Source: Spirosoma oryzae (lineage in GTDB: Bacteria > Bacteroidota > Bacteroidia > Cytophagales > Spirosomataceae). From it: a stretch of 64,000 nucleotides of DNA. Positions 52,414-57,958 of the stretch are shown here, piece after piece (position 1 is the first letter of the stretch; the number at the start of each line of letters is the position of its first letter). The stretch covers positions 1 through 64,000 of the forward strand of contig NZ_PVTE01000005.1 of NCBI RefSeq assembly GCF_003002825.1. The letters run 5' to 3'. The notes under the pieces were generated by a model that saw only the letters and a list, made by a program, of their open reading frames with translations, was not told the DNA's origin and made no database searches. The translations under genes were made by a program, and so were the position numbers.

Positions 52414-54195
52414 GTGAAAGCTCTTTCTTACCTCAACAAATACCTCCTCAAGTATAAATGGTACCTGATCTGGGGCACGGTCTTTACGGCCATCTCCAAC
52501 CTGTTCGGGATTTTTCCTGCCCAGCTTGTTCGGTATGCCCTCGACCTGGTTCGCGAAACGCTCGACATCTATCACCTCTACGATGGTATGCCGGTGCAGA
52601 CATCGCTCTACAACGTCTTTGCGTTCAGTCTGTTGCTATTCGCGGGTGGTACGCTGGTGCTGGCGCTGCTGAAAGGGTTTTTCCTGTTCCTGGTCCGGCA
52701 GACGCTTATCGTGATGTCGCGGCACATCGAATACGACCTCAAAAACGAGATTTACGACCACTACCAGACGCTACCGCTGAGCTTTTACCGGCAGCACAAT
52801 ACCGGTGATTTGATGGCGCGTATTTCGGAAGACGTTAGCAAAGTGCGGATGTACGTCGGGCCAAGTATCATGTACGGCGTCAACCTGATTGTGCTGTTCA
52901 TACTGGTCATCACATACATGGTCAGCATCAACGCCCGGCTGTCGGCGTATGTGCTCCTGCCGTTGCCGATTCTGTCGGTGCTGATCTACCTGGTCAACAA
53001 CATTATTATTCGTAAATCGGAAGAGATCCAGCGTAGCCTGTCGCAGATGTCGACGTACGTGCAGGAAGCCTTTTCGGGCATCCGGGTACTGAAAGCATTC
53101 GTGCAGGAAAAACAGTCGGCAGCCCGTTTCGAGACGGAAAGCGACCGGTACCGGGAGAAGTCACTGAGCCTGACAAAAGTCGACTCGCTGTTCTTCCCCA
53201 TCGTGGCCATTCTGGTCGGCCTGAGCAACATTCTGGTCGTGTACATCGGTGGACAGGAAATTATCGCCGGTCGACTGACGCCGGGTAACATCACCGAGTT
53301 TATCCTGTATGTCAATATGCTGACCTGGCCGGTGATGGCCTTGGGCTGGACGACAAGTCAGACGCAACGGGCGGCTGCGTCGCAGGCCCGCATCAACGAG
53401 TTTCTGAACATCAAGACGAACATCGTATCGGCGAAAGACGTTAACCGAACGATTCAGGGCGAAATCGAATTCCGCAACGTCCGGTTCGTGTACCCCGATT
53501 CGGGTATCGTCGCGCTGCACGATTTTTCCATGCATGTGAAGGCCGGCGAAACCGTTGCCATCCTGGGTACAACCGGTTCCGGAAAAACGACGCTGGCTAA
53601 CCTGCTGACCCGTATGTACGACGTGTCATCGGGTGAAATTCGGATCGACAACACCCCCATCGTTGATTACAACCTGACCTCGTTACGGAGTCAGATGGGG
53701 TATGTGCCGCAGGATGTTTTCCTGTTCTCGGAAACGATCAGCAACAATGTCCGTTTTGGTCGCCCGGACCTGCCGCAGGCGCGTGTCGAACAGGCCGTGC
53801 GCGACGCTGATCTGTACCAGAACGTGATCGATTTTCCGGAAGGTTTCGATACAGCCGTGGGTGAACGGGGCGTCACGCTGTCGGGTGGACAGAAACAGCG
53901 ACTCAGCATTGCCCGCGCCATCGCCCGTGACCCGCGCATTCTGATTCTGGACGACTGTCTGTCGGCGGTCGATACCAACACGGAGAACATCATTCTGAAC
54001 AACTTGCGCCGGATCATGGCCGATCGCACGTCGGTAATCATCTCGCACCGCGTATCATCGGCCAAACTTGCTGATTACATTATCATGCTCGATGAGGGAA
54101 CAATCGTCGAAGAGGGCACGCAGGCTGAACTGATGGCCCGCAACGGGGCTTTCCGCGAACTCTACGAGAAGCAGTTGCAGACAGAAGAGGTGTAA
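52414..54195 (+). CDS. ABC exporter half-transporter with a variant Walker B (MdlA-like)
   Basis: 593 residues: an N-terminal six-helix transmembrane domain (about 15-320) fused to an ATP-binding domain (about 350-585). Walker A GTTGSGKTT lies near 384, signature LSGGQKQR near 489 and Walker B ILILDDCLSAVD near 509-520. The residue after the Walker B aspartate is Asp, not the usual catalytic Glu, as in the degenerate half of heterodimeric exporters such as MdlA. The start is GTG at 52414 with no ATG alternative. Likely an exporter of lipids or drugs. No second half-transporter lies next to it, so its partner, if any, is elsewhere. Confidence 0.88.
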   Translation: MKALSYLNKYLLKYKWYLIWGTVFTAISNLFGIFPAQLVRYALDLVRETLDIYHLYDGMPVQTSLYNVFAFSLLLFAGGTLVLALLKGFFLFLVRQTLIVMSRHIEYDLKNEIYDHYQTLPLSFYRQHNTGDLMARISEDVSKVRMYVGPSIMYGVNLIVLFILVITYMVSINARLSAYVLLPLPILSVLIYLVNNIIIRKSEEIQRSLSQMSTYVQEAFSGIRVLKAFVQEKQSAARFETESDRYREKSLSLTKVDSLFFPIVAILVGLSNILVVYIGGQEIIAGRLTPGNITEFILYVNMLTWPVMALGWTTSQTQRAAASQARINEFLNIKTNIVSAKDVNRTIQGEIEFRNVRFVYPDSGIVALHDFSMHVKAGETVAILGTTGSGKTTLANLLTRMYDVSSGEIRIDNTPIVDYNLTSLRSQMGYVPQDVFLFSETISNNVRFGRPDLPQARVEQAVRDADLYQNVIDFPEGFDTAVGERGVTLSGGQKQRLSIARAIARDPRILILDDCLSAVDTNTENIILNNLRRIMADRTSVIISHRVSSAKLADYIIMLDEGTIVEEGTQAELMARNGAFRELYEKQLQTEEV

Positions 54196-54235
54196 CTTTT
54201 TATAGACCACCGCATATAACATATAAATGGTGGGA

Positions 54236-54270
54236 AGACCGGATGGTTTTAGTCGAAAACCATCCGGTCT
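54236..54270 (+). terminator. Hairpin after the ABC exporter gene
   Basis: A perfect 15-bp stem (54236-54250 with 54256-54270) lies 41 bp after the stop. No T run follows. Its right half is part of the 45-bp direct repeat that also occurs at 54935-54979. Confidence 0.6.
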
Positions 54271-54300
54271 GTGTAGAGACGCAAGATCTTGCGTCTCTAC
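54256..54300. repeat. REP palindrome and 45-bp direct repeat, left copy
   Basis: A 28-bp perfect palindrome with GTAGAGACGC arms (54273-54300), preceded by AAAACCATCCGGT. The full 45 bp recurs at 54935-54979 with a single mismatch. Confidence 0.9.
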
Positions 54301-54321
54301 TCTACGTCATGCGACAGCCTG

Positions 54322-54861
54322 TTACATAAACAGACCAATCTCATTGATTCGCTCATGGTGCCAATTGGCAGGATTTTGAGCAATGTAATGTCGAATACGG
54401 CTCAATTCGTCTGCATTGCGAACGACTCGGTCATGGTAACGAGATTGCCAACCAAAGTCGATTCCTAACCGGCTGGCAAATGTTGTTACGCCGATTTTGT
54501 AGCCCCGGATGATAGCTGCCAGATTCCTGCTCTGCGGACCAAACGTATTGGGCTGCCAGTCATGATCGTCCGATCGGTCAATGCATAGCAGACCATGAAT
54601 GTGGTTCGGCATAACCTGAAATTCATCAAGCAACATGAACGGATAATGGTGAGGAATCGCCAGCCAGCAATCGATAGCTTGCTGGCCAATAGGTGTCGTT
54701 TGTAGAGACGCGATATCTTGCGTTTCTATAATTTCGCCGAAAAAGCATTCTTTCTGCCGAGTACAGATCGTTACGAAATAGATGCCGTTTGCGCTGTAGT
54801 CGTAGCCCGCAAGTCGAGCCGAGCTAATACGATATTTGTTTCTGTAGTGTGTCTCGCTCAT
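54322..54861 (-). CDS. REP-associated tyrosine transposase (RAYT)
   Basis: 179 residues of the IS200-like Y1 transposase family. The metal-binding HUH motif is HIH at 87-89 in VMPNHIHGLL, and the catalytic tyrosine is Y159 in RIRHYIAQNPANW. RAYTs cut single-stranded REP hairpins and are thought to spread them in genomes. REP-type palindromes flank the gene on both sides (54273-54300 and 54952-54979), and a degenerate one lies in the coding sequence (54702-54729), encoding about residues 45-54 (ETQDIASLQ region). The gene appears intact and might be functional. It sits between an exporter gene and uvrA. Confidence 0.9.
   Translation of the reverse strand: MSETHYRNKYRISSARLAGYDYSANGIYFVTICTRQKECFFGEIIETQDIASLQTTPIGQQAIDCWLAIPHHYPFMLLDEFQVMPNHIHGLLCIDRSDDHDWQPNTFGPQSRNLAAIIRGYKIGVTTFASRLGIDFGWQSRYHDRVVRNADELSRIRHYIAQNPANWHHERINEIGLFM
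54702..54729. repeat. Degenerate REP palindrome inside the RAYT gene
   Basis: 24 of 28 positions match the flanking palindromes, starting GTAGAGACGC. It lies at codons 45-54 of the transposase, a loop region between the FGE motif and the TPIG motif. Confidence 0.85.
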
Positions 54862-54934
54862 TGGTGTGGGGGGTAATCGATAAATAACGAATTACAGTGT
54901 CGAGACGAGATAATAAGCGCTTAGTTACGTATAT

Positions 54935-54979
54935 AAAACCATCCGGTTTGTGTAGAGACGCAAGATCTTGCGTCTCTAC
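54935..54979. repeat. REP palindrome and 45-bp direct repeat, right copy
   Basis: Copy of the left repeat with one difference (T for C at 54948). The palindrome part, 54952-54979, is perfect. Confidence 0.9.
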
Positions 54980-55096
54980 GGGACGCGTCAGCCAGCACGC
55001 GTCAACTATACCTAATACCCCCTAAATCGAGTTGGGTTTGAGGAAACTACGCGGGGGCCGTTTACGTTGTTTTTTAGAATAAGCCAACCCCAACGC

Positions 55097-57958
55097 GTGA
55101 CGACAGAAGAAACGACTCAACTGAACGATATTGACCTGACAGGCTACGAGCAAATCGAAGTGCTGGGGGCTCGCGAACATAACTTAAAGAACATTGACGT
55201 AACGATTCCCCGCAACAAGCTGGTGGTCGTTACGGGGATCAGCGGGAGCGGCAAATCGTCGCTGGCGTTCGATACCATTTACGCCGAAGGCCAACGCCGG
55301 TACATGGAAAGCTTTTCGGCTTACGCCCGCTCATTCATCGGCGATATGGAACGGCCCGATGTCGACAAGATCAACGGCCTGAGTCCGGTGATTTCGATCG
55401 AGCAGAAGACGACTTCGAAAAACCCGCGTTCGACGGTCGGTACGACTACCGAGATATACGATTTCCTGCGACTACTCTACGCCCGCGCTGGCGAAGCGTT
55501 TTCGTACATAACCGGCCGGAAGATGGAGCGGCAGTCGCAGGATCAGATCATCGACACGATTCTGGACCAGTACGCCGGGCAGAAACTCACCCTGCTGGCA
55601 CCGGTCATCAAAGGGCGTAAGGGGCACTACCGCGAACTGTTTGTGCAGATCGCCAAGATGGGGTATACCAAAGTGCGTGTCGACGGAACGGTACAGGACA
55701 TCGTACCGAAAATGCAGCTCGACCGCTACAAAATCCACGACATTGAAATTGTCATCGACCGGATCGTTCCGAAAGCGGAAGACAGGTATCGGCTGAGTCA
55801 GTCGGTGCAGACGGCGCTGAAGCAGGGCAAAGGGGCCATGCAGATGCTCGACGGCAGTGGTCAGCTGGTGTACTTCTCGCAGAACCTGATGGACCCGGAG
55901 TCGGGTATCAGCTACGACGAGCCTTCGCCAAACTCCTTTTCGTTCAACTCGCCCTATGGTGCCTGTCCGGTTTGCAACGGGCTAGGCGTGATCGAAGAAA
56001 TCACGGAAGAGTCGGTTATTCCCGATAAATCACTGAGCGTGAGCCGGGGGGCGATTGCCCCGCTGGGCGAATACCGCGAGCTGTGGATATTCAAGGAAAT
56101 TGAAGCGATTCTGAAGAAGTACAAGTTGAGCCTGAGTACGCCCGTCAGCAAGTACCCCGACGATCTGCTGTATGCGTTGATGTACGGTACGGAAGCGGAC
56201 ACGGTCGACCCATCGAAGAAGAAGTACGAGGCCGATCATTTCAACTTCAAATTCGAGGGCATTGTCAACTTTCTGAAGCGGCAGCAGGAAAACTCCACCG
56301 ACAAGATTCAGGAGTGGATCAAAGATTTCATGGTCGTCAAGACCTGTCCGGAATGCCACGGTGCCCGGCTGAAGAAGGAGTCGCTATTTTTCAAAATCGA
56401 CCAGAAAAACATCTCCGAACTGGCCCGCATGGACATTTCGGAACTGACCGCCTGGTTCGATGGACTGGAAGGTCGCATGAGCGACCGGCAAAACGTCATC
56501 GGCAAAGAGATCCTGAAAGAAATTCGCAAGCGCATCGGCTTTCTGGTCGACATCGGGCTGGATTACCTGACGCTCGACCGGTCGTTGCGTACATTGTCGG
56601 GTGGTGAAGCGCAGCGGATACGACTGGCCACGCAGATCGGTACGCAGCTTGTCGGGGTGTTGTACATCATGGATGAGCCGAGTATTGGTCTGCATCAGCG
56701 CGATAACGTGAAGCTGATCGACTCGCTGAAAAACCTGCGTGATCTGGGCAACACCGTGTTGGTCGTGGAGCACGATAAGGACATGATGCTTGAGTCCGAC
56801 TTTATTCTCGACATCGGCCCCGGAGCCGGTCGACATGGCGGGCAGGTTGTTGGCATCGGTACGCCCGACGAATTTATTCAGAACGGCAGCACAACCGCCG
56901 ACTACCTGAGCGGACGTCGGGCTATTGCTGTGCCGACCGAACGGCGGAAAGGTAACGGCAAGTTTCTGCTGATCAAAAACGCGACGGGGCACAACCTGAA
57001 AAACGTGACGCTGAAGCTGCCGCTTGGCCGGATGATTAGCATTACGGGAGTATCGGGTAGTGGAAAGTCGTCGCTGATTCACGAGACGCTGTTTCCTATT
57101 CTGAACCGTCATTTCTACAAGTCGAAACGGGAGCCCCTGGCGTTCAAAACCGTCGACGGGCTGGAGCATCTGGACAAGGTAATCGAGGTCGATCAGTCGC
57201 CGATCGGTCGGACGCCCCGCTCGAATCCGGCTACGTACACGGGGATGTTCTCTGACATTCGCACGCTGTTTGCCGAGTTACCGGAAGCCAAAATCCGGGG
57301 CTACAAACCCGGTCGGTTCTCGTTCAACGTGAAAGGCGGCCGGTGCGAAGACTGCGAAGGCGCCGGCATGAAGAAAGTCGAGATGGAATTCCTGCCCGAC
57401 GTACACGTGTTGTGCGAAACCTGCAAGGGTAAGCGGTTCAACCGCGAAACGCTGGAGGTACGTTTCAAAGGCAAATCGATCGCCGACGTGCTCGACATGA
57501 CCGTTGAACAAGGATTGGAGTTCTTCGCCAGTCAGCCGAAAATTCTGCGAAAAATTCAGACACTGAACGATGTTGGGTTGGGCTATATTACGCTGGGTCA
57601 ACATGCCACGACGCTGTCAGGTGGCGAAGCGCAGCGGGTGAAACTGGCCGAAGAACTATCGAAGAAAGATACCGGTAAGACCCTGTACATTCTCGACGAA
57701 CCAACGACTGGCCTGCACTTTCAGGACATCGCGCACTTGCTCGACGTGCTGAACAAACTCGCCGACAAAGGCAACACCGTCCTGATCATCGAGCACAATC
57801 TTGACGTAATCAAAGTCTCCGACCACGTCATCGACCTCGGGCCGGAGGGTGGTAATAAAGGTGGCCAAATTATCGCCGAAGGAACACCCGAAAAAGTCGC
57901 CGAAGCGAAAGGTAGCTACACCGGTAAGTTCCTGAAGATGGAGTTACAGGCCAGCTAA
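55097..57958 (+). CDS. uvrA: Excinuclease ABC subunit A
   Basis: About 953 residues from the GTG at 55097; an in-frame TTG at 55067 is less likely since the family start aligns better at the later codon. UvrA is the damage-recognition ATPase of nucleotide excision repair. Two ABC domains are seen: Walker A GISGSGKS near 47-54 and GVSGSGKS near 645, signatures LSGGEAQRI near 495 and LSGGEAQRV near 845. Zinc fingers are seen as CPVCNG, CPECHG and CEDCEG/CETCKG. A terminator follows. No uvrB or uvrC in the window. Confidence 0.97.

Follow-up and report, generated by a model that had tools for sequence, protein, structure and literature searches.

A RAYT gene between direct REP repeats upstream of uvrA in Spirosoma oryzae, a probable newcomer of another lineage

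The 64,000-bp stretch of the Spirosoma oryzae genome analyzed here (the window; its genome is G000, other G numbers denote compared genomes, and L numbers denote loci or sequences that were read) carries a RAYT gene with its own double-foot REP on each side, directly upstream of uvrA. We consider it about 75% probable that this unit is a REPtron of a Rudanella/Fibrella-type lineage, with REPs on both sides, which arrived after the split from the nearest sequenced relative and may be subject to turnover by recombination between direct repeats. It would have landed in a variable space upstream of uvrA where, judging from trees and synteny, RAYTs of a different clade reside in congeners.

REPtrons as a kind are already known. 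The RAYT/TnpA_REP REPtrons, including E. coli TnpA_REP (PDB 4er8), share with the window the HuH-Y1 fold and a gene bordered by genome-dispersed GTAG palindromes, according to the accessible text of PMC2817692 and PMC6006769. As far as this text goes, features that set the window apart are flanking units in direct repetition that carry an additional box, palindromes with a GTAG at either foot, and a REP within the gene. The value of the genus lies in its record of turnover. Two RAYT clades are bound to their sites, one sister pair is filled and empty with an exact direct-repeat junction, one place holds a RAYT in the nearest relative but other DNA beside a REP remnant in the window's genome, and a foreign-lineage RAYT stands at a used type of site. 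This record makes the rate and mechanism of RAYT turnover testable.

Layout of the locus and identity of the protein

The RAYT (TnpA_REP) gene (54322..54861, minus strand) encodes 179 amino acids with intact HuH and Y motifs, based on open reading frame, alignment, profile and fold analyses. It is located between an ABC exporter gene (52414..54195, plus strand) and its divergent neighbor uvrA (55067..57958, plus strand); the order exporter-X-uvrA is also present in G158, as revealed by blastn synteny. The preliminary description of this DNA had reported two 45-bp direct repeats around the gene, and they are indeed found at 54256..54300 and 54935..54979 (both plus strand), with one mismatch, a start-to-start distance of 679 bp and spacers of 21 and 73 bp to the RAYT frame. 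The repeats cannot be lengthened exactly on either side. Each consists of a CCATCCGG box and a double-foot REP, and each terminates, as had been claimed, in the perfect 28-bp palindrome GTAGAGACGCAAGATCTTGCGTCTCTAC with GTAG at both feet (left REP, 54273..54300; right REP, 54952..54979). Flanking REPs of RAYT genes are given as inverted in the accessible sections of PMC2817692; here the palindromes are perfect, which leaves the REPs with no defined orientation, and the boxes joined to them point the same way. The best match of the palindrome in the window outside 54201-55000 equals 17/28, which places the locus far beyond chance. The looser pattern TAGAGACGC shows no overall enrichment when up to one mismatch is allowed (14 matches versus 12.9 expected in the window), and all five of its exact matches in the window fall inside the RAYT locus.

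Judged from its sequence and modeled fold, the protein is a divergent RAYT, a Y1 HuH nuclease of the domesticated transposase type. The identification made from the letters alone is supported by 4er8 being the top match by both sequence profile and fold: a profile of 24 relatives finds this E. coli RAYT with an E value of 2.4e-7, and Foldseek places it first (E 1.6e-6). The AlphaFold model (mean pLDDT of 81, with residues 1-20 poorly modeled) aligns to 4er8 with a Z score of 12.3 and an rmsd of 3.1 over 127 residues, followed by IS608 chains (Z 10.4-10.9). Fold matches beyond HuH transposases, such as Thg1 and ribosomal S6 (Z 6-7), were taken as a common arrangement. Residues H87, H89, Y159, N163 and P164 are invariant in the 24 aligned sequences, all of which match NF047646 at an E value of <=0.001. 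The window RAYT itself scores 40.4 bits against NF047646 (E 2.6e-10), below the NCBIfam cutoff of 80 bits, and 15.1 bits against Pfam Y1_Tnp, below the cutoff of 23. A genome search found one close RAYT copy in G000. A second, distant RAYT-like match (31% identity, E 6e-5) lies at 29.3 kb of contig C40 (L032/L219).

REP-like palindromes also stand beside related RAYTs when these are read by eye, and 55 of 59 RAYT frames have a flanking palindrome within 500 bp, a count without a control of its own. In ten RAYTs (L071, L072, L073, L075, L134, L137, L138, L142, L143 and L144), the TAG stop is directly followed by the REP; the sequence is ATGTAG at nine of these 3' ends and ATATAG at that of L138, which looks as though the stop codon came from the GTAG foot of the 3' REP. 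In L067 and the window RAYT, the stop is not supplied by the 3' REP in this way.

By analogy to the enzymes of E. coli, Stenotrophomonas and Marinomonas, the REPs are presumed single-stranded DNA hairpin substrates that are cut by the RAYT near GTAG; action on such substrates is known from E. coli, S. maltophilia and Marinomonas enzymes in the accessible parts of PMC8266576. The RAYT would bind the folded single-stranded REP, recognize GTAG and cut nearby at CT or CA, and a double-foot REP would offer a cut site on both strands.

Arrival and turnover upstream of uvrA

In blastn comparisons, homology to the two closest relatives, G162 and G158, ends at the exporter stop codon (54195) and restarts at 55018-55019, leaving an 822-bp block without homology to either (54196..55017). 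The GC content of this block is 46.7%, compared to 54.6% in both neighbor genes, which is weak evidence. Where the window has these 822 bp, the exporter-uvrA gap of G158 holds about 1.9 kb of other genes, and G162 shows the like at contig ends; by eye, the gap genes are HNH-like and PIN-like, and the G162 and G158 stretches read at this place have no GAGACGC. A simple empty site in the nearest relatives was set aside, as other genes occupy the gap. In the uvrA tree, G158 is positioned outside G000 and G162. Since both relatives are without the block, arrival in the window's lineage is the simplest course, a direction given by parsimony over two relatives, one of which is an 82%-complete draft.

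A RAYT was detected at an E value of <=1e-15 in 16 of the 36 congeneric genomes, and in five of the 36 (the window's, G152, G153, G154 and G159) it stands divergently beside uvrA, in the same orientation. For the latter count, the uvrA loci of 30 genomes were read and G153 was added by coordinates, while G155, G149, G126, G004 and G164, which are outside the uvrA tree, were judged by coordinates or by an absent RAYT match. In a tree of 25 RAYTs, with site names assigned by reading the flanks, one clade unites the other four RAYTs of the uvrA site (100/98) and another unites three of the fucP site (93/94); a further group of five (95/94) contains both mfs and tolC sites. Seven of the 14 congeneric near-group rows thus cluster by site, five mix two sites, and two (the window and L133) stand apart. 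The window RAYT belongs to none of these groups; it falls among rows whose branching is unresolved, namely Rudanella, Fibrella, SUN052, G029 and one row of G156 (L133). Its identity to the Rudanella, Fibrella and SUN052 rows amounts to 67-71%, and that to the 13 congeneric rows of alignment A1 (far L079 excluded) to 52-63%. Trees that hold the window RAYT with the uvrA-site four (AU p 0.0036) or with the 12 congeneric members of the three groups above, L133 left out (AU p 0.00014), were rejected; these p values are optimistic because the groups were defined with a first tree already in view. Support for the group that surrounds the window RAYT is weak (86/64). One congener, L133, belongs to it (63% identity, another site), and the newcomer may therefore stem from inside the genus. 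Its lineage would comprise Rudanella/Fibrella-type relatives and, more distantly, the RAYT at this other site. The 3' neighbor genes of L067 and L133, which belong to two genera, look similar by eye (start about M-AFEP-KLSFSGHESFQ), and another RAYT place may perhaps be common to both genera.

Could the gene instead have been inherited from a RAYT upstream of uvrA in the genus ancestor, kept in the window's lineage and lost from its closest relatives? Such vertical descent is favored by the common orientation in 5 of 36 genomes and by five of the 26 remaining loci among the 30 read (L106, L118, L124, L128 and L129), which have exact REP arms upstream of uvrA but no RAYT. However, both nearest relatives have other DNA and no REP at the place, and the grouping that descent would predict with the other four uvrA-site RAYTs is the one rejected at p 0.0036, for a group named after the first tree. 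We therefore regard this course as unlikely. Together, the two nearest relatives, which lack the block and carry other genes there, and the lack of kinship with the other uvrA-site RAYTs agree with the recent mobility proposed earlier, and suggest that the window RAYT is a newcomer: it would belong to another lineage and have entered the genome once the nearest relative had branched off. Gene content upstream of uvrA varies between many congeners (30 loci, L103-L132), which may explain the presence of two RAYT lineages at one place. As for a vehicle of transfer, none was shown by a plasmid collection, with two distant matches (45% in Spirosoma sp. KNUC1025 and 32.5% in Leptolinea), or by a phage collection, with one match (29%). 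RAYTs are described as vertically inherited, single-copy domesticated transposases in the accessible text of PMC8049555, where gain and loss are left open in the REPIN persistence model. In the part of the literature that our search covered, no RAYT of a different lineage was found described at a place that RAYTs already use, which is a weak absence.

The presence of a RAYT beside uvrA is patchy and requires at least five changes in 31 genomes. In G159, two REPINs border the RAYT at this place, and their left halves form a direct repeat of 40 bp with one mismatch. When this locus is cut in silico between the 40-bp repeats, the resulting 835 bp align without gaps to G146, with 801 of the 835 positions identical. 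The difference between these sister species fits exact recombination between the direct REP halves, and may represent either a loss in G146 or a gain in G159. The earlier proposal that recombination between the direct repeats could remove the window gene thus stands in part: it is supported by analogy, from a pair at the same chromosomal place with another RAYT, but for the window RAYT itself no empty site with a single 45-bp copy was found; the nearest relatives, G162 and G158, carry other genes there. Extrapolating from this one species pair, REPtrons would come and go at a site as if by exact recombination between direct REP halves, and the fate of the gene at a place seems to be set by recombination between its flanking REPs. 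A filled/empty RAYT pair with an exact direct-repeat junction was not found in the literature within the same limited coverage, again a weak absence. At a seemingly identical TolC-GNAT place in G068, G149 and G156 (L072/L073 and L142), the RAYT of G156 appears by eye to be inverted relative to its neighbors, an orientation that could reflect inversion between flanking REPs.

The dispersed REP family and the repeated box

The locus palindrome is a member of a genome-wide REP family. Pattern GTAGAGACGC has 83 matches (42+41) in the 6.57-Mb genome, compared to 3 (0+3) for the reversed control pattern, and hits outside the window locus were grouped into 51 sites. In 31 of these 51 sites, REPs are paired in inverted orientation as REPINs, 45-270 bp across with one mismatch allowed per arm, which corresponds to the inverted REP pairs known as REPINs (PMC3116915; accessible parts of PMC8049555). 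The exact REP core of the window RAYT, AAGATCTT, has only three copies among the sites examined, the remaining sites having other cores. A REPIN interior with 11 copies of the 14-bp unit CCGGCGGTAGCCCT was observed near 134.2 kb of contig C12 (L043).

The genome search for the palindrome and the 45-bp unit, suggested in the preliminary description, thus returned a dispersed REP family and, on contig C4 at about 8.6 kb, a further copy of the whole unit (43/45) with the same AAGATCTT core and without a close RAYT match there. This copy, together with the repeats that bracket the gene, would be expected of a classical transposon that is still moving, with the gene as cargo between two direct repeats. 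We find this distinctly improbable, given that the genome holds one close RAYT copy and that its dispersed element is the REP. In congeners, moreover, the four uvrA-site RAYTs and the three fucP-site RAYTs each group according to location, a pattern that resident genes would show. IS200/IS605 (class 1) elements, by comparison, have on average several near-identical copies per genome and a Y---Q motif, whereas the window RAYT has one close copy and Y---NP. Least probable of all is a local duplication of a REP site around a pre-existing gene with no functional link, for which the one-base difference between the repeats and a three-REP array elsewhere (L062) can be cited, against the palindromes alongside related RAYTs and within 500 bp of 55 of 59 frames (no own control).

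Returning to the REPtron, the REPINs of G000 are, by sequence comparison, largely older than the arrival of the window RAYT, because for 12 of 20 distinct G162 REP sites, 250 bp or more of the flank is also found at a REP site of G000 (the 20 sites come from 30 loci read out of 67 hits). In G162, a RAYT of another clade adjoins an MFS gene (C475). Where G162 has 762 bp at this place, G000 shows 1.7 kb of other DNA, together with a remnant REP. On this basis, and from the type of flank, the window's lineage probably lost an older RAYT that fits the main REPIN type.

The box in the 45-bp units had been interpreted as half of the terminator hairpin of the exporter gene. A 15-bp inverted repeat of the CCGGATGG/CCATCCGG box with a 5-nt loop is present (54236..54270; arms 54236-54250 and 54256-54270), but a terminator scan of 54150-55120 gave no terminator-like site, and the box is a regular neighbor of REPs. 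The CATCCGG box occurs near 32 of the 51 REP sites of G000 and in 8 of 116 control pieces. The corresponding values for the exact GCGTCAGC box, which stands 3' of the right REP (54985..54992, plus strand) and is matched with one mismatch by GCGACAGC near the left one (54311..54318, plus strand), are 30 of 51 and 9 of 116. The controls were REP-free pieces of 300 bp, and the REP neighborhoods were somewhat longer (280 bp plus the element). On the empty scan and the recurrence of the box at REP sites, the terminator interpretation was rejected. Nor is the view supported that the right unit was copied from the left, as by eye L067 and L097, two related RAYTs, have a similar box next to their 5' REP. 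With the box a recurrent REP neighbor that is also present at these two loci, the right 45-bp copy may be the original as readily as the left.

A third REP inside the RAYT gene

A REP not mentioned in the preliminary description lies within the RAYT gene (54702..54729, minus strand), where similarity and structure indicate a worn, in-frame copy at codons 45-54 (IETQDIASLQ). It matches the flanking REP at 24 of 28 positions. The best match reaches 13-16/28 in 19 relatives without an insert and 18-20 in three whose genes contain a REP in the HuH-Y interval, and 2,000 codon shuffles give 19/28 at most. The arms of the window's in-gene REP have decayed too far to pass the cutoff of the palindrome scan, and this REP was recognized through sequence similarity instead. 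It is located 39 codons before the HuH motif, within a modeled strand-turn-strand (residues 42-55) that would precede the catalytic motifs. The close relatives L067, L068, L069 and L097 have equal length and no REP at this place, so the in-gene REP is not a simple insertion relative to them.

Only two of 59 frames, those of the window and L224, have a REP before HuH within the domain. L224, from G423, is a RAYT of another family; its in-gene REP (ETQSIASLQ) coincides with that of the window in codon position and reading frame and is a true insertion. The two RAYTs are far apart in the tree, and forcing them into one clade, to probe a common origin of their in-gene REPs, gives an AU p of 0.052. 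Because two far-apart RAYTs share the codon position and the open reading frame of such a REP, one may speculate that RAYTs can write their own REP at one fixed place of their own gene upstream of HuH, as a second self-targeting site beside the known HuH-Y site. In the window, the REP would then have taken the place of coding sequence with no change in length relative to close relatives, the palindrome encoding one strand-turn-strand. This idea is doubtful at present; if true, the RAYT could use its internal REP to act on the gene that encodes it, or on the transcript. A REP before HuH was not found described within our limited literature coverage, likewise a weak absence.

Among known systems, TnpA_REP subclass 2.4, as presented in the accessible text of PMC6006769, shares with the window its occurrence in Bacteroidetes, double-foot REPs and in-frame REPs in the gene. 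The in-gene inserts and REPs of this subclass generally lie between HuH and Y (beta3:alphaC) according to this text. The window RAYT, in contrast, has no HuH-Y insert, and its REP lies before HuH without a change in length versus close relatives; its Y motif reads YIAQNP, compared to the YIxNNP given for the subclass. Rickettsial RPE and intragenic REPs are likewise palindromic repeats read in frame in genes, in the accessible part of PMC3733652; they differ from the window's REP, which sits in the REP's own presumed transposase.

Palindromes between HuH and Y were observed in nine genes (L079, L080, L082, L085, L090, L091, L092, L093 and L139), a count taken over 62 frames, three of which are duplicate records. 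Matches at codons -90 to -99 in L085, L087 and L228 were not counted, as they probably lie before the true start. Rows with no complete RAYT frame were dropped (L094, L095, L140, L141, L145, L226 and L241); among them, L094 also has an in-gene palindrome.
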